Origin: a virus
Virus record (IMG/VR): IMGVR_UViG_3300009149_000011
Location: 1 to 64,000 of that record
Direction: 5' to 3' (one strand)
DNA: 64,000 nucleotides
The notes beneath the pieces are model-generated. The model was not told the DNA's origin. It made no database searches and saw nothing but the letters and a program-made list of their open reading frames with translations. Position numbers and translations under genes: made by a program. Below are positions 12,658 to 63,813 of this stretch, one piece after another. Numbering within the stretch: the first letter of the stretch is position 1; each line of letters starts with the position of its first letter.

Positions 12658-13455
12658 ATGAAAAATAAAGATACATCAAAAAGTTTAATATACCAATTCT
12701 TAGATCATAATAATGAACCATTTTATGTAGGTAAAACAAACAATCTACATAGACGTAAACAAGAACATAAAAAAGATTTAAAAAAGAAAGCTAACCTATA
12801 TGTATATAGAAAGATAACCAAACTCATCAGGGATCATAATTACAAACTGAAAATAGATATTGTATCCGAAGGCTTGTCTGAATCAGAAGCAAATGCTATG
12901 GAAATAACGCTTATTAAAAAGTATAGAGATAAAGGATATAAATTATCCAATCTCACAGATGGTGGAGACGGTACTCTGGGTCATGTTCCAGTTTTTACAG
13001 ATGAGTGGAGAAAAAATTTAAGTGAAGCAGCCAAAAAAAGAGTTGCTAGAGATGGAGTTCCATTTAAAGGGAAAAAGCACTCTGATGAAACAAAGAAGAA
13101 ATTAAGCCAGGTGAGAAAAGGGAAAATGCAAGGCAAGGATAATCCTTTTTATGGAAAACATCACACCGAAGAATTGAAAAAAGCTAATGCAGAAAGAGCT
13201 AGAAAACTTTTTTCTGGAAAAAAACAAAATAAAGAACATAAAGAAAAAAGAAGGCAAGCTATGATTAAAAAATTTATTAAAGCTACCCCTCCAAATAAAA
13301 AAACATTTATATGGAAAGATAGCTCTTCTACTCTTTCAGATTTCCTACTTAAAGAATATGGATATAAAGTAGCTAGGGGAACAATAAGCACATACACAAA
13401 AAGTGAAAAAACACTTAAAAGCGGATGGAAATTTAAATATATAGAAAGATTCTAG
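12658..13455 (+). CDS. GIY-YIG homing endonuclease with NUMOD3 repeats, 265 aa
   Basis: GIY-YIG domain at residues 10-95: LIYQFLDHNNEPFYVGKTNN (Y...YVGK), then RRKQEHK with catalytic Arg and a Glu in ESEANAMEITLI. NUMOD3 DNA-binding repeats follow (FKGKKHSDETKKKLS, NPFYGKHHTEELKKA), then an HTH-like tail (AVARGTIS). Free-standing homing endonuclease like the T4 Seg enzymes, which cut a cognate site and spread by repair. One of only two plus-strand genes; its stop overlaps the PARP stop head-to-head (CTAG), the mark of an inserted mobile gene. Confidence 0.9.
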   Translation: MKNKDTSKSLIYQFLDHNNEPFYVGKTNNLHRRKQEHKKDLKKKANLYVYRKITKLIRDHNYKLKIDIVSEGLSESEANAMEITLIKKYRDKGYKLSNLTDGGDGTLGHVPVFTDEWRKNLSEAAKKRVARDGVPFKGKKHSDETKKKLSQVRKGKMQGKDNPFYGKHHTEELKKANAERARKLFSGKKQNKEHKEKRRQAMIKKFIKATPPNKKTFIWKDSSSTLSDFLLKEYGYKVARGTISTYTKSEKTLKSGWKFKYIERF

Positions 13456-14756
13456 CTTACTTCCACCAAATATTCTATAGTAGTTTGATTCTCATTGTAA
13501 ACCATATACTCATTATTTCTCAAATCAGCACCACCATGAGCAAACACTGAATCATAATCCCCTAGCCTTTTAAGACGCTCTTCTGTTAATTGAGAATGAG
13601 AGTGCTCCCATTTCTTAATGTGATACTGATTACCAACGTGAACACTATACAAAGCTAAGAACGCTTTGTCACTACTTCCATTTGCCCAGTACGACCCTCT
13701 AAGAGAGGTGTAACCTAAAGATTTCTTAAACTTATCTGAAAAATACGTCGATTGACCAAACATTTTTCCCGTTATTACAGCATTTGAGGGTCTTAACACT
13801 AATCCACCTTCCATGATAGACAACCAGTTCTCATTCCTAGATCCATGCCAGTACAATTCTACCGTTTTGTTATCGGCGCTGTTTCTATATTTATCGAATT
13901 TATTAAATGTCTTTTCATTCTTAACTCTAAAAGCGGACTTGAACATGTTAGATTCAGGGCCCATTTTCTTTTTAATCATGTCAATAGTAGCTTTATCAGT
14001 TACAGCTTCCATTTTTAGCCCCATAAGGTCCACAATAGTACCTGAAGGCTTATCGTCTCCGTCTTCCTCTTCCTCCTCATCTTGAGCCGCATTCATTTTT
14101 ACCTGGCCACGCATTACATCAAGAGTATCTTGCTCACTACCCAATAAGTCTTGAGCCACACTAATAGTATCTTTGTTAATGTTTTCCTCTAAAAGGTAAT
14201 CTCCAACGTGAGCCATTTTTCTTGGAATTACTTTATAAAGAGATAAAAGCTTTTCGTTTACAGCATCCTTATCCGTGCCTACTTTAATCAATCCTACAAT
14301 TTCATCGATAATCTCCTGAGCTCTATCAACCATCTTTACAGTTACGCTTTCAGAAGAAATTTCATAGTTCTCTTTTACCGACTTGTTAGAGTACGAGCTC
14401 AAAAGCTTCATAATTCTCTTAATCTCCGAATCGGCAATGTTAAAAATATCTTTTTCAACCTTTGGCTTCGATGGGTCTTTACTCTCCACATGAAACAGCT
14501 CGGTCATATCTTCATAACCTTTCTTCACCTTAGATCTAAGCGTGGAATCCCATTTAGACATTGGATAAACGGTTATTTTTAGATAAGTCTCTTCTAAAGT
14601 GTCTTGCTTGGTGGGATCAGCCCTACCCCAATGGGCTTCAAATTGACCATCACCTCTTTCGTACATATTGTACACTTTGTTGTTGTTTTTGCCATCACGA
14701 CCCTCAACAAAAACAAGTTTTTTAGCTCCAAGAATTACTTTAGTATCTGTACTCAT
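13452..14756 (-). CDS. poly(ADP-ribose) polymerase with WGR, regulatory and catalytic domains, 434 aa
   Basis: WGR domain at about residues 10-85 (YEAHWGRADPT-like core, FEAHWGRA seen). A helical regulatory domain follows, then a Glu/Asp-rich linker, then the ADP-ribosyltransferase domain. The H-Y-E triad is present: YWHGSR (His), GKMFGQSTYFSD (Tyr) and NEYMVYN (Glu), matching the HGS, GIYFAD and NEYIVYD motifs of PARP1. It should use NAD+ to build ADP-ribose chains, probably stimulated by DNA ends through WGR. Phage PARPs are known but rare; a role in host takeover or DNA-break response is inference. Confidence 0.9.
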   Translation of the reverse strand: MSTDTKVILGAKKLVFVEGRDGKNNNKVYNMYERGDGQFEAHWGRADPTKQDTLEETYLKITVYPMSKWDSTLRSKVKKGYEDMTELFHVESKDPSKPKVEKDIFNIADSEIKRIMKLLSSYSNKSVKENYEISSESVTVKMVDRAQEIIDEIVGLIKVGTDKDAVNEKLLSLYKVIPRKMAHVGDYLLEENINKDTISVAQDLLGSEQDTLDVMRGQVKMNAAQDEEEEEDGDDKPSGTIVDLMGLKMEAVTDKATIDMIKKKMGPESNMFKSAFRVKNEKTFNKFDKYRNSADNKTVELYWHGSRNENWLSIMEGGLVLRPSNAVITGKMFGQSTYFSDKFKKSLGYTSLRGSYWANGSSDKAFLALYSVHVGNQYHIKKWEHSHSQLTEERLKRLGDYDSVFAHGGADLRNNEYMVYNENQTTIEYLVEVS

Positions 14757-31017: not shown

Positions 31018-31443
31018 TTATGTTATTTGTTGAGTCTGCCCATCTTGTTGATAAGCTTTCGGGATTTCTCTTCCTTGAGGGAAAATGTATATTCCCTTCT
31101 TTTTAAGGAGAGCATTGGCTATCTGTAAAATCATGTTACCCCCAGGCATAAATTGGAAACCTAGCAAATTAAGAACTTTAACAAAATCTATGCTCTTTTC
31201 TTTAAGGAATTTGATTTCTTCCGCTGTTATTGTTTGATCTTTAAGGCATGATAAAATAATCTTAGCCGCTATAATGTTTTCAACTTTAGCTCTACCAACC
31301 GCCTTTCTAAGTTCTCCAGCTTTTTTGATTACCATCTTTTTAACATCTATCTTCTTAAGAAAATCGCTAATCTTCCCTTCATCTAAATAAAAGTCCGCAA
31401 TCTCTTCTTGGATAATCTGTTGTATTCTAGCTTCGGTAATCAT
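31018..31443 (-). CDS. hypothetical protein with IIQEEI amino motif, 141 aa
   Basis: Start taken at MITEARIQQIIQEEIADFYL (31443); the frame is open to 31467. The IIQEEIxxFYL helix also opens 41564, 42385 and 62410. A hydrophobic stretch near the end (LLGFQFMPGGNMILQIANAL) and a QGREIPKAYQ tail recall LETM1-like phage proteins, tentative. A terminator lies just upstream. Confidence 0.55.
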   Translation of the reverse strand: MITEARIQQIIQEEIADFYLDEGKISDFLKKIDVKKMVIKKAGELRKAVGRAKVENIIAAKIILSCLKDQTITAEEIKFLKEKSIDFVKVLNLLGFQFMPGGNMILQIANALLKKKGIYIFPQGREIPKAYQQDGQTQQIT

Positions 31444-31468
31444 GTCAATAAATATGACCAAAAACATA

Positions 31469-31498
31469 AAAAGCCCTCCAAAAAGGAGAGCTTTTTTA
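31469..31498 (-). terminator. intrinsic terminator of the RNase P RNA candidate
   Basis: AAAAGCTCTCC and GGAGGGCTTTTT pair with one mismatch around a T-rich loop, followed by T-run on the minus strand. It is about 12 nt 3' of the conserved CR-V segment. Confidence 0.8.
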
Positions 31499-31499
31499 A

Positions 31500-31682
31500 A
31501 TGTAAAGTGAGCTTAGCCAAGCTTCTGTTTTAATCCATCATTTGTCTGAGCCTCTACCTTGTCATTATTGCCGCGAAGGAACCCCGACTAGACTGTTATG
31601 AGTTGCACACCATGTTGCGGAAGTGTAAGCGAATTTCTTCTCCTTCCTCCTTCGGATGTGGCCTGAGCTTCCTCTTAATAAT
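31500..31682 (-). ncRNA. rnpB: minimal RNase P RNA candidate
   Basis: Conserved regions appear in order on the minus strand: CR-I GAGGAAGCTCAGGC (31674-31661), CR-II-like GTGTGCAACTCATAACAG, CR-IV-like AGACAAATGATGG, and CR-V ACAGAAGCTTGGCTAAGC (31528-31511). P4 can form with the diagnostic bulged U: AGC-(U)-CAGG with CUUG-GCU, matching AAG-(U)-CCGGG with CCCGG-CUU in cellular RNA. At about 180 nt it lacks most peripheral helices. It would mature the tRNAs encoded here, with host RnpA. Function needs testing; the conserved core is convincing. Confidence 0.65.
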
Positions 31683-31859
31683 TTACTTATTAAGCGATGA
31701 ATTCTCTTCTTTACAATTTCCCTTTAACTCTATCAATTCTTGCTTAGTCTTATTGTGACTAGTTCTCTCCGCGTGAAAGGCAAACATATACATAAGTCCA
31801 CACACTCCAGCAATTATCAAAGGAAATGTTAAAGGATTAATTTGCTTTTTATTATTCAT
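31683..31859 (-). CDS. small membrane protein, 58 aa
   Basis: MNNKKQINPLTFPLIIAGVC leads into one transmembrane helix (about 10-29), followed by a charged tail with one Cys. Ends directly upstream of the RNase P RNA candidate, which may be cut from the same transcript. Confidence 0.55.
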   Translation of the reverse strand: MNNKKQINPLTFPLIIAGVCGLMYMFAFHAERTSHNKTKQELIELKGNCKEENSSLNK

Positions 31860-31866
31860 AACTTTT

Positions 31867-32658
31867 TTATTTAAATAACCAATAAAACCAAACCGCTTTC
31901 TTACCTATAGCTTTATAGAACTGATACTTAGTTAAAAATTTATCATTTATCCACCATTGTTTATCTCCATTGGAATATTCAACGGCTGGACCATCTTCTC
32001 TGTGATATAATCCATTGAGATACCATTTTTTAGTTCCATCAGCATTTTCAACGGCGGGACCATCTTCTCTATGCCTTTCTTTGTTGAGATACCAAGCTTT
32101 ATCTCCATTGGAATATTCAATAGCTGGACCATCTTCTCTATGAAGATTTCCATTTAGGTACCAACATTTATATCCATTGGAATATTCAATAGCTGGACCA
32201 TCTTCTCTATGCCTTTCTCCATTCAGATACCAATATTTACCCCCATCGGCATATTCAATAGCTGGACCATCTTCTCTATGCTTTTTTCCATTGAGATACC
32301 AACATTTATATCCATTAGCATATTCAATAGCTGGACCATCTTCTCTATGTAGATTTCCATTGAAATACCACTCTTTATTTCCATTGGCATATTCAATAGC
32401 AAGCCCACCTTCTCGATGTCTTCCCCCATTAAGGAACCATTCTTTGTCTCCGTTATCATATATGACAGCTGGACCATCTTCTCTATGAATCTTTCCATTT
32501 AGACGCCACTCACCACCCAAATCACCTTTCTTTTTGAAGGCATGTTCTTCTACAATTGGCACGCTAGTGGGTACGGTATTAGATCTCTCTTCAAACTCTT
32601 TCTGAGTTATTATAAGACCTTCCCATCTATAAATTTTTCTTTGTGTACTATCGCTCAT
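31867..32658 (-). CDS. HREDGPA-repeat protein (intact), 263 aa
   Basis: After about 58 unique residues there are eight 23-residue repeats of the form HREDGPAIEYxxGxKxWYLNG, encoded by 69-nt DNA repeats (about 31955-32510), then a short aromatic tail. Strand-turn-strand repeats like these resemble MORN/YwqK-type repeats and build an elongated beta solenoid. Binding partner unknown. Paralogue of the amber-interrupted gene at 11461. One-base overlap with 32658-33617. Confidence 0.8.
   Translation of the reverse strand: MSDSTQRKIYRWEGLIITQKEFEERSNTVPTSVPIVEEHAFKKKGDLGGEWRLNGKIHREDGPAVIYDNGDKEWFLNGGRHREGGLAIEYANGNKEWYFNGNLHREDGPAIEYANGYKCWYLNGKKHREDGPAIEYADGGKYWYLNGERHREDGPAIEYSNGYKCWYLNGNLHREDGPAIEYSNGDKAWYLNKERHREDGPAVENADGTKKWYLNGLYHREDGPAVEYSNGDKQWWINDKFLTKYQFYKAIGKKAVWFYWLFK
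31955..32510 (-). repeat. eight tandem 69-nt coding repeats
   Basis: Eight near-identical units inside the 31867-32658 gene, each encoding one HREDGPA repeat. The homogenised DNA sequence suggests recent duplication or gene conversion. They are coding and not a CRISPR array. Confidence 0.8.
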
Positions 32659-56744: not shown

Positions 56745-57112
56745 TTTAGTTTAAAGACCTGAGAGGAGGCTCCGCCTCCCCTAAAGTCTCGAATTCTTTT
56801 AATTGAATGAATGCTGATTAGGCAGCCATTGCAAGAGATTCTGTGTTTACGTTTATTTCGCCGTTTACTTGTTTTGATCTAACTCTTTTCACTCCGTTCA
56901 TCATGACCAGTCAAGTGCCAGTTAATCCCCATTTAAACTCTTTACCTTAAAGTTTGATTTCTCAGGGACAATAAGGAATCAGATAACTGTTTCCATGTCA
57001 TAGTTACGTTTCCGAAGAAAGAGGCTTTACTAGACCTAGTGGAGAATTGGGGAGTTGAACCCCAGTCCTGTGAAACTTCTCGAAACAAATACGAACGAGT
57101 AGCGATCCTGTA
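56745..57112 (-). ncRNA. ssrA: tmRNA, apparently circularly permuted
   Basis: Tag frame at 56862-56821: GGC resume codon then G-E-I-N-V-N-T-E-S-L-A-M-A-A and TAA; the ending LAMAA is a typical degron and GE.N is Bacteroidota-like. The T arm/acceptor end (TGGGG-TTCAACT-CCCCA-ATTCTCC, 57064-57041) lies upstream of the tag, while the tRNA-like 5' end GGGGATTAACTGG (56930-56918) follows it, the order of permuted genes. GGGGA pairs with TCTCC, and GAAC-G-GAGTG (56899-56890) with TACTCGTTC (57101-57093). Exact ends unknown. Confidence 0.75.
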
Positions 57113-57123
57113 TAAATACAAAA

Positions 57124-57154
57124 CAAAATTACAAAAAGTTCAAACTAATATCAA
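57124..57154 (-). promoter_or_regulatory. Bacteroidota-type promoter of tmRNA
   Basis: Minus strand TTG (57154-57152), exactly 20 nt, TAATTTTG (57131-57124). Predicted start of transcription falls a few nt upstream of the acceptor piece of the tmRNA. Confidence 0.75.
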
Positions 57155-57177
57155 ATTATTTTGATATTATTTTAATA

Positions 57178-57465
57178 TTAGTATAAATCATCTAAAAATA
57201 CGGGCGTAGTTTCACCTAAATAACCTCCAATTATGTTATAGTAAAAATACTCCAAAGCATCCTCGTGAGTCATATCATCCTTCATAAGGATATCTATGAT
57301 TCCCTTCTTACTGTATAATACGGCCATATCATTTCCGAATTTCTCTACAACCCCTACTATAGCATCGTCTAATCCATCGAAGAATATCAATCCATAATCT
57401 TCATCATAGTTTTGCTCTATCTCTTCACGTTTAGATATCTTTTTAATCTCTTTTTTTTCGCTCAT
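57178..57465 (-). CDS. conserved phage-type hypothetical protein, 95 aa
   Basis: Start set at 57465 (MSEKKEIKKISKREE) where TAATG overlaps the upstream stop. FFDGLDDAIVGVVEKFGNDM, IIDILMKDDMTHEDALEYFY and GGYLGETTPVF are the marks of a very common uncharacterised phage family. Confidence 0.75.
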   Translation of the reverse strand: MSEKKEIKKISKREEIEQNYDEDYGLIFFDGLDDAIVGVVEKFGNDMAVLYSKKGIIDILMKDDMTHEDALEYFYYNIIGGYLGETTPVFLDDLY

Positions 57466-57656
57466 TATTTTGGTTTTCTTATTGCTAATTGATATACGGT
57501 TATCGGCCATGTTAATGTTACTGCTATTATCATAATCAGCTCTTTTTTAGGGACAGTTTGCTCCAAGTTAGTACCATACTTAAAAAGAAGCAAAGTAGAT
57601 AACGAGAAACAACCACCCATCAAAAAATACATTGAAATATATAATCCCCAGTCCAT
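57465..57656 (-). CDS. two-helix membrane protein, 63 aa
   Basis: Hydrophobic segments at about 3-24 and 38-56 separated by KYGTNLEQTVPKK. One-base overlaps with both neighbours. Function unknown. Confidence 0.5.
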   Translation of the reverse strand: MDWGLYISMYFLMGGCFSLSTLLLFKYGTNLEQTVPKKELIMIIAVTLTWPITVYQLAIRKPK

Positions 57657-58624
57657 TAGAAGTTTGTTTCTATAATCTTTTTTACTGGAAAAAATTCATT
57701 TACAGCACTAGACTCCTCGTCTTTATTAAACTTGTTACCATCCCAAAGAAAAGCCGATGCGTGAGTTGATCTTTGTATATATTTAATTACAAAATTATAC
57801 AACTCAACAAATGGCTGATCCTGTTTAAATCCTGGTAAAGTCATTCCCCAATAATTTAAAAAGAACTCCATAAATACCTCCAAATGAGCCGATCCCACAT
57901 GTTTCCAGTAATCTGCTGTCGGAGTCCATATATCTGTGTGAGGATGCACATCTACTATAGCTGAGGCAATTGCGAAACAAGCTTCATCAGGAACTTGTTG
58001 AGCCCATTTACTCATTTCAATATCAACGTCTCCATTAGACACCGCATCATATACCTCTAATGCTTTGTCAAACAATTTTTCAGCTGAGCCTCCTTTCTTC
58101 CAATAAATAAAGTGGCTATGTATTTGAGACATTGTTCCTTCTTTTAAATCAAAAGCTTTTGCAAAATTACCAACAGTACCCCAGTCCATTATTTTTTGAT
58201 TTGACTTTTTAGCAATGTCAAATTTACCAGAAACATATGAAGTAAAATCATGCTCCTGCAATTCATACATAAGCCATGAGACCTTTTTACCAGGAAACCA
58301 TAATGAATCAGAATCAATAAATGCAACTTCATCAAACGGGTTATAATGATTAATCATGCATTTAAATCTACTAGGCATCATAACGTCATCAACGTATAAA
58401 TCCTCCCTTTTAGCTAATATCTTTAAAGTGAATATCTTTTGCTGTTTATAATCCAATTCTGCAAACACCTCATCGCCATAATATATAATGGCAATTGGTA
58501 TTGTAGGGTCTTCAGATCTAATGCTTAGAGCTAGATTGTAGGCATACTTGCCATACACCGATTGCCCTGCCGCAAACAATAATACCCCTTTAGATAAATC
58601 TGTTTTTTCAGTTTTTACTCCCAT
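57656..58624 (-). CDS. GT-A-fold glycosyltransferase-like protein, 322 aa
   Basis: SKGVLLFAAGQSVYGKYAYN start, then EVAFIDSDSLWFPGKKVSWL: the DSD is the metal/nucleotide-sugar-binding DxD motif. HSHFIYWKKGGSAEKLFDKA and VPDEACFAIASAI fit the acceptor side of nucleotide-diphospho-sugar transferases. Similar proteins occur in large phages. Acceptor unknown. Confidence 0.75.
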   Translation of the reverse strand: MGVKTEKTDLSKGVLLFAAGQSVYGKYAYNLALSIRSEDPTIPIAIIYYGDEVFAELDYKQQKIFTLKILAKREDLYVDDVMMPSRFKCMINHYNPFDEVAFIDSDSLWFPGKKVSWLMYELQEHDFTSYVSGKFDIAKKSNQKIMDWGTVGNFAKAFDLKEGTMSQIHSHFIYWKKGGSAEKLFDKALEVYDAVSNGDVDIEMSKWAQQVPDEACFAIASAIVDVHPHTDIWTPTADYWKHVGSAHLEVFMEFFLNYWGMTLPGFKQDQPFVELYNFVIKYIQRSTHASAFLWDGNKFNKDEESSAVNEFFPVKKIIETNF

Positions 58625-62254: not shown

Positions 62255-62265
62255 TTTAAAGTTAG

Positions 62266-62338
62266 AGGGAGTGATGGGGCTCGAACCCACGACCACGGTG
62301 TTAGAGACCGCTGTTCTAACCAGCTGAACTACACTCCC
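62266..62338 (-). tRNA. amber-suppressor-type tRNA (anticodon CTA)
   Basis: Complete cloverleaf: acceptor GGGAGTG/CACTCCC, D arm GTTCAGCTGGTTAGAAC, anticodon stem GCGGT/ACCGT with loop CTCTAAC (U33, anticodon CTA, A37), T arm GTGGG-TTCGAGC-CCCAT, U73. CTA reads UAG. The amino acid it carries cannot be read from sequence with certainty; the acceptor GGGAGTG equals that of tRNA-Tyr at 38897. Confidence 0.88.
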
Positions 62339-63649: not shown

Positions 63650-63655
63650 AACTTG

Positions 63656-63733
63656 AGCTCCTGGAAGGGATCGAACCTCCGAACTTTCTAAACCTTGCGG
63701 GGTTTAGCGCTTATACCAACCAGCCACAGGAGC
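63656..63733 (-). tRNA. tRNA-like gene, anticodon arm with CCGCAA loop
   Basis: Acceptor GCTCCTG/CAGGAGC, T arm GGAGG-TTCGATC-CCTTC. Anticodon arm 20 nt: CTAAACC/GGTTTAG (7 bp) closing CCGCAA. Same hexaloop as its neighbours. Confidence 0.55.
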
Positions 63734-63738
63734 ATTTT

Positions 63739-63813
63739 GAGCGAAGGGGTAGAATCGAACTACCGTACTATAGGTTTGCGGACCTATCGCCTAACCACTC
63801 GGCAACCTTCGCT
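63739..63813 (-). tRNA. tRNA-Cys-like gene, anticodon arm with CCGCAA loop
   Basis: Acceptor AGCGAAG/CTTCGCT, D region GCCGAGTGGTTAGGC as in tRNA-Cys, T arm GGTAG-TTCGATT-CTACC. Anticodon arm ATAGGT/ACCTAT closes CCGCAA: like the Cys loop CTGCAAA but with C33 and one A fewer. Confidence 0.6.

Follow-up and report, generated by a model that had tools for sequence, protein, structure and literature searches.

A compact ribonuclease P RNA gene in a tailed phage and its relatives among large phages

The window analysed here is a stretch of 64,000 nucleotides (nt), the first 64 kb of the 149,006-nt virus record IMGVR_UViG_3300009149_000011 (G000), and it harbours a gene for a compact ribonuclease P (RNase P) RNA on the minus strand at approximately 31715–31501. 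RNase P RNA is the catalytic RNA that cells use for trimming transfer RNAs (tRNAs), and it is known from cells and organelles. The gene measures about 215 nt from the P1 5′ arm to the P1 3′ arm, with its ends placed by the P1 complementarity UGUAAAG/CUUUACA, and it was delimited with the help of two covariance-model matches given below. No open reading frame (ORF) of at least 60 codons covers it, and the neighbouring genes and tRNAs lie on the same strand. An intrinsic terminator, AAAAAGCTCTCC-TTTTT-GGAGGGCTTTTT with a T run, is located at 31496–31468 on the minus strand (1 seen versus 0.3 expected from shuffles). A preliminary description, made from the sequence of the window, had given no strand and had placed the RNA at 31500–31682 with a length of about 180 nt. 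The 3′ end and the terminator of that description were retained, while the 5′ end was approximately 33 nt short, leaving P1, P2 and the 5′ arm of P3 outside; the true start is near 31715.

In the 5′ half, the order of segments is the P1 arm, the P2 arm, the P3 hairpin, GAGGA, the P4 5′ arm, the P5 arm, the P6 arm and a short P7 domain. The 3′ half continues with the P5 arm, GCAACUCAUAACAG, a hairpin with the P6 partner in its loop, AAGGUAGAGGC, AGACAAAUGA, the P2 arm, ACAGAA, GCUUGGCU and the P1 arm. The P1 5′ arm UGUAAAG (31709–31715) pairs with 31507–31501; this helix was read directly from the sequence and stands outside the covariation test. Beside it, GAG at 31706–31704 is also complementary to CUC at 31511–31509. 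The P2 5′ arm UUCAUC (31696–31701) pairs with GAUGGA (31539–31534), and the P3 hairpin CUUAAUAA-GUAAA-UUAUUAAG (31674–31694) was identified by folding and by covariation among relatives. The P4 helix is formed by AGC[U]CAGGC (31661–31669), in which the bulged U of conserved region CR-I is marked, and GCUUGGCU, giving 8 pairs and the bulged U. CR-I itself reads GAGGAAGCUC (31674–31665) and CR-V reads GCUUGGCUA (31522–31514). CR-IV, ACAGAA (31528–31523), is followed by the P4 3′ arm within CR-V (together 31515–31528), as seen from sequence and alignment. The P5 5′ arm CACAUC (31655–31660) pairs with GGUGUG (31611–31606), and the P6 5′ arm CGAAGGA (31648–31654) forms a pseudoknot of 7 Watson–Crick pairs with UCCUUCG (31580–31574) in the loop of a P16/17-like hairpin, GUCG/CGGC (31570–31588), placed by sequence and alignment.

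Between P6 and P5 only about 29 nt of the specificity domain are left (31619–31647), consisting of P7, GGAAG/CUUCC, closed by a short cap that includes GAGAAGAAAUUCG. P8–P14 could not be assigned, in agreement with the earlier proposal that peripheral helices had been stripped off. That proposal had also listed CR-I-, CR-II-, CR-IV- and CR-V-like blocks in order. CR-I, CR-IV and CR-V are present on the minus strand, whereas no block in the window RNA was assignable to CR-II or CR-III because the domain bearing them is missing. By alignment position, the GGU-containing segment AAGGUAGAGGC (31550–31560) is the putative counterpart of the CCA-binding motif of bacterial L15. Few of the 30 tRNA genes in the 149-kb record encode CCA, though GGU is kept near the place of the CCA-binding loop.

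When 601 bases around the gene were searched against all 4227 Rfam families, RNaseP_arch matched over its full length at 31708–31505 on the minus strand (32.9 bits, E 9.4e-8); searched alone against the 149-kb record, the same model gave E 5.4e-9. The covariance search proposed beforehand thus returned an RNase P family, with a score under the curated gathering cut-off of 84, and the bacterial class A cut-off was not reached either. An archaeal origin, as the name of the model might imply, was dropped because RNaseP_arch also picks up the RNase P RNA of E. coli and those of many other bacteria. Other weak Rfam matches near the RNA, among them RefA9, Phe_leader and CRISPR-DR6, corresponded to the terminator hairpin or were below threshold.

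A covariance model, R1, was built from 17 aligned compact phage relatives with the window RNA left out. It found the window RNA at 31711–31509 on the minus strand with 120.7 bits and a rough E-value, as are all those of R1, of 1.2e-32, and no other significant site either in the 149-kb record or in its continuation, the 388-kb contig. The relatives had been collected with a pattern derived from the 3′ region of the window RNA itself, and the test was consequently repeated with that region cut away, giving 67.9 bits and E 6.7e-20 (in 2 kb). The energy of the single-sequence fold was not better than that of shuffles (z = 0.43), which would fit a chance resemblance to RNase P motifs; the two held-out scores already refute such a resemblance, and its probability is regarded as negligible. 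Pseudoknotted RNAs commonly have fold energies no better than shuffles, so that this measure carries little information. The case for an RNase P RNA is comparative, since single-sequence folding alone is uninformative.

The pattern used to collect relatives, AGAYRAATGR followed after 4–24 nt by ACAGAANNNNGGCT, corresponds to the last part of the RNA, and CR-IV ACAGAA belonged to it. A scan of 2.9 million viral contigs gave 80 matching stretches. Membership was then decided by a GGA followed by AGYUCNNNN complementary to the P4 3′ arm in no fewer than 7 of the 8 positions, a filter passed by 60 of the 80; with the window copy this amounts to 61 loci and 54 distinct sequences, numbers that are lower bounds because the scans used exact patterns. 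Homologues in related genomes, which the preliminary description had suggested looking for, are accordingly present in viral contigs, many of them 100–405 kb long. The span from GGA to the end of P4 ranged from 148 to 312 nt among the relatives. Other approaches were less productive: a 15-mer search of the viral contigs with CR-IV/V gave matches at chance level, a two-part pattern with corrected gap found nothing, and the window RNA had no BLASTN match among named phages. The neighbouring protein at 31018–31467, used as a query, gave one distant relative, and the RNA was not there.

BLASTN with one of the relatives led to uncultured phages of 735,411 and 642,428 nt, and with another to the 634,780-nt phage LR745206.1. 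The RNAs of these phages scored 106.2, 113.6 and 117.6 bits with R1, respectively; Rfam at its cut-offs misses the RNA in the largest phages. In the cultured Stenotrophomonas phage DLP6 (KU682439.2), R1 located the RNA at 105776–106011 (90.5 bits, E 1.3e-25), in a gap that carries no annotation, directly ahead of a tRNA-Arg gene and within a cluster of 30 tRNAs. Rfam, even at E 0.1, lists no RNase P at this site, and RNase P is unmentioned in the paper describing DLP6. The RNA is carried by dozens of large phages, the largest known included, and standard annotation mostly misses it. A missing Rfam match in a phage is no evidence that an RNase P RNA is absent.

Support for the structure came from the 17 relatives, in which 94.2% of the cells at 32 pairs were standard pairs, compared to 34–47% when the partners were slid by 1–3 columns. 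Cells with double changes numbered 130 against 44.5 in shuffles, and the covariation score was reached by 0 of 500 shuffles. Double changes occurred in P2 (5 of 5 pairs), P3, P5, where the relatives are 100% paired, and P7, all of them helices that played no part in selecting the members. In P4 every family cell is paired, a perfect result that is partly due to selection, as members were chosen for at least 7 of 8 P4 pairs. The last four P4 pairs nevertheless differ in kind across the family, and all 54 sequences form 7 or 8 of the 8 pairs. The P6 pseudoknot, which characterises type A RNase P RNA, was tested on aligned columns in 18 sequences including that of the window. At least 5 Watson–Crick pairs were possible in 15 of the 18, against a mean of 2.25 and a maximum of 8 when partners were exchanged in 2000 shuffles; the complementarity involves 15 distinct sequences in the 18 members. 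The core signatures, namely the bulged U, CR-I, CR-IV and CR-V, are kept in all members. The preliminary description had proposed a virus-encoded RNase P RNA, to be given up if there were neither a significant covariance-model match nor P4 covariation in relatives; both the R1 score and the exchanged P4 pairs speak for the proposal.

A P4 that keeps the bulged U and uses other base pairs than the bacterial RNA had also been described correctly. At pairs 2 and 3 the window has G:C and C:G, and its relatives have G:C and Y:G (U:G or C:G), as opposed to the canonical A:U and G:C. The search pattern selected for this variant form. Compact phage RNAs with a canonical P4 were also recognised by R1 (L315 with 133.8 bits, L314 with 111.5 and L308 with 104.1). 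A single family thus includes both forms of P4, which is what would be expected of compensatory change. With both forms found side by side and the pairing kept, the canonical pairs 2 and 3 are not treated as defining.

The longer phage relatives L163, L140 and L132 exceed the cut-off of the bacterial class A model (RF00010), which suggests that the phage RNA descended from a bacterial rnpB by reduction. A probable bacterial source would also suit a relic, that is a decaying copy of a host rnpB, or contamination by cellular DNA assembled into a viral contig. Both are very improbable: the compensatory changes reflect selection on structure, and independent viral contigs share the gene with the 735-, 642- and 635-kb phages and with one cultured phage. 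A scan of 84,980 cellular genomes, moreover, yielded likely RNase P RNAs with the variant P4 from no more than three termite-gut Mycoplasmataceae and three short contigs belonging to other bins. The RNase P RNAs of these Mycoplasmataceae (L236, L253 and L269) share the unusual P4 pairs of the phages.

The record belongs to a tailed phage, as positions 96015–149006 of G000 are 99.98% identical to 18–53011 of the 388,594-nt contig G002, which contains a terminase gene (57064–57711) and a weak tail-sheath match. From this overlap the genome is at least approximately 484 kb. Some 40 tRNA genes are present in the joined genome, 30 of them in G000 and the other 10 towards the distal end of G002, and the nearest tRNAs in the window lie about 6 kb off on either side of the RNA. 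Across the family, tRNA genes occur at 52 of the 61 loci, and all 508 tRNAs share the strand of the RNA, the nearest one lying at a median distance of 134 nt from it. Terminase was found in 14 and sheath in 11 of 33 carrier or companion records, many of which are fragments. A permuted (two-piece) transfer-messenger RNA (tmRNA) scoring above the Rfam cut-off is encoded in the window at 56818–57099 on the minus strand. Together with the tmRNA genes at several family loci, this would be expected if the RNA were a true RNase P serving mainly the permuted tmRNA or a phage regulatory RNA and not tRNAs generally. Most family loci, however, are tRNA clusters with no tmRNA nearby, and such a specialised substrate is considered unlikely.

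The protein subunit RnpA (PF00825) was not found in most carriers of the RNA. The 642-kb phage encodes an RnpA recognised by Pfam with 53 bits against a cut-off of 22.3 (E 3.7e-14), and the RnpA of the 635-kb phage is 51.6% identical to it; the genes are located at 525189–525473 of LR756502.1 (L300) and at 76462–76740 of LR745206.1 (L318). At least two phages therefore possess genes for the RNA as well as the protein of a bacterial-type RNase P. The main rival explanation is that the RNA is a decoy whose RNase P fold captures host RnpA or pre-tRNAs and shuts down host tRNA maturation. The RNA of most carriers, the phage in the window included, would compete for the host protein since no RnpA of their own was found, and a reduced specificity domain is compatible with this role. 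A decoy for binding has no need of the catalytic core that is kept in every member, and neither the position of the genes inside phage tRNA clusters nor the coupling of the RNA with phage RnpA in two genomes is expected from it. We consider a decoy quite unlikely.

Judged from sequence and comparative structure, the gene very probably encodes a compact phage RNase P RNA that joins host RnpA and matures phage pre-tRNAs. It would be transcribed from the minus strand, ending at its own terminator. The RNA retains the ribozyme core (P1–P5, P4 with the bulged U, the P6/L17 pseudoknot, CR-IV and CR-V), has lost most of the specificity domain, and would fold around P4, binding catalytic Mg2+. Its partner is probably host RnpA in the case of the window genome, where no RnpA was found, or phage RnpA where one is encoded. 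The predicted enzyme would remove the 5′ leaders from the approximately 40 phage pre-tRNAs and probably from the permuted tmRNA too.

Some observations weigh against this interpretation. RNA-alone activity may be weak because little remains of the specificity domain, which in bacteria binds the T loop of the tRNA. The P4 pairs 2 and 3 that are changed here are near-invariant in cellular RNase P RNAs. RnpA was not found in G000 or G002, joined contigs that are perhaps incomplete. With stricter filters, R1 had no match in the well-known jumbo phages G, XacN1 (rich in tRNAs) and Lak-A1, indicating that the RNA is dispensable for some such phages; Atu_ph07, CBB, PBS1, SCTP-2, phiKZ and T4 were likewise unmatched.

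More tentatively, and with rather less than even confidence, large phages could be pictured as bringing their own RNase P, as the RNA in many of them and as the complete holoenzyme in those of 642 and 635 kb. In the infected cell such an enzyme might displace or outcompete that of the host and be tuned to phage tRNAs, and reduction together with changed partners might have altered even the active-site helix P4. The viral family shows phages to be able to carry the very ribozyme that matures tRNAs, sometimes with its protein, and suggests a route by which phages carrying dozens of tRNAs could complete their maturation with only partial dependence on the host. Being minimal ribozymes found in nature, with hardly any specificity domain and a changed P4, these RNAs make it testable which core features are needed for catalysis, and the cultured phage DLP6 is a system ready for testing a phage RNase P RNA.

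The surroundings of the gene contain further features. A 58-codon ORF at 31683–31859 on the minus strand overlaps the first 33 nt of the RNA and may be an upstream cotranscribed gene or a chance ORF; it has one likely membrane segment, and its stop falls within the P3 hairpin. Just 5′ of the RNA, a lone CRISPR-DR6-like 30-mer is found at 31730–31759 on the minus strand (27.5 bits, below the cut-off of 39). A repeat protein with a weak DUF6745 match is encoded at 31867–32658 on the minus strand, and its repeats are akin to many copies at 271–281 kb of G002. Two adjacent tRNA genes at 63655–63733 and 63739–63812, both on the minus strand, were assigned a four-base anticodon (cgca) by ARAGORN and are possible frameshift-suppressor tRNAs. 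Amber tRNAs with a CTA anticodon are located on the minus strand at 62265–62338 in the window and at 64291–64364 in G000, and part of the ORFs of the genome end in TAG. The minus strand also encodes a protein with a C-terminal PARP (ADP-ribosyl transferase) catalytic domain at 13452–14756 in the window, and a DNA polymerase III alpha-type protein with a Hint/intein-like segment at its end, perhaps split or intein-interrupted, at 145559–147760 of G000.

A search of open-access literature, with few subscription papers and no preprints, turned up no description of an RNase P RNA in a phage or in any other virus. A survey of huge phages with a largest genome of 735 kb mentions tmRNAs and not RNase P (PMC7162821), and a full Rfam search of two megaphages returned tRNAs and a tmRNA only (PMC8172020). 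The pre-tRNAs of phage T4 require RNase P (PMC11143913) and are processed by the host enzyme; R1 had no match in T4.

Bacterial RNase P RNAs are 340–420 nt long (PMC4919922). With bacterial type A (RF00010) the window RNA has in common P1–P5, the bulged U of P4, the P6/L17 pseudoknot, the GGU-containing segment and CR-I, CR-IV and CR-V; it differs in its length of about 215 nt, the absence of an assignable P8–P14 with CR-II and CR-III, the changed P4 pairs and a score under the cut-off. The archaeal RNA (RF00373) was the top Rfam match by core geometry, yet the score was far under the cut-off. The diverged RNase P RNAs of Candidate Phyla Radiation (CPR) bacteria likewise have sub-threshold Rfam scores and lost helices, but belong to cellular genomes (PMC8172020). 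A similar reduction is seen in the type P (type T) RNA of Pyrobaculum, in which, as summarised in PMC4919922 citing Lai et al. 2010, the catalytic domain is kept and the specificity domain is almost wholly missing. The phage RNA, in contrast, retains the P6/L17 pseudoknot and a capped P7 and is viral, and the two reductions were probably independent.
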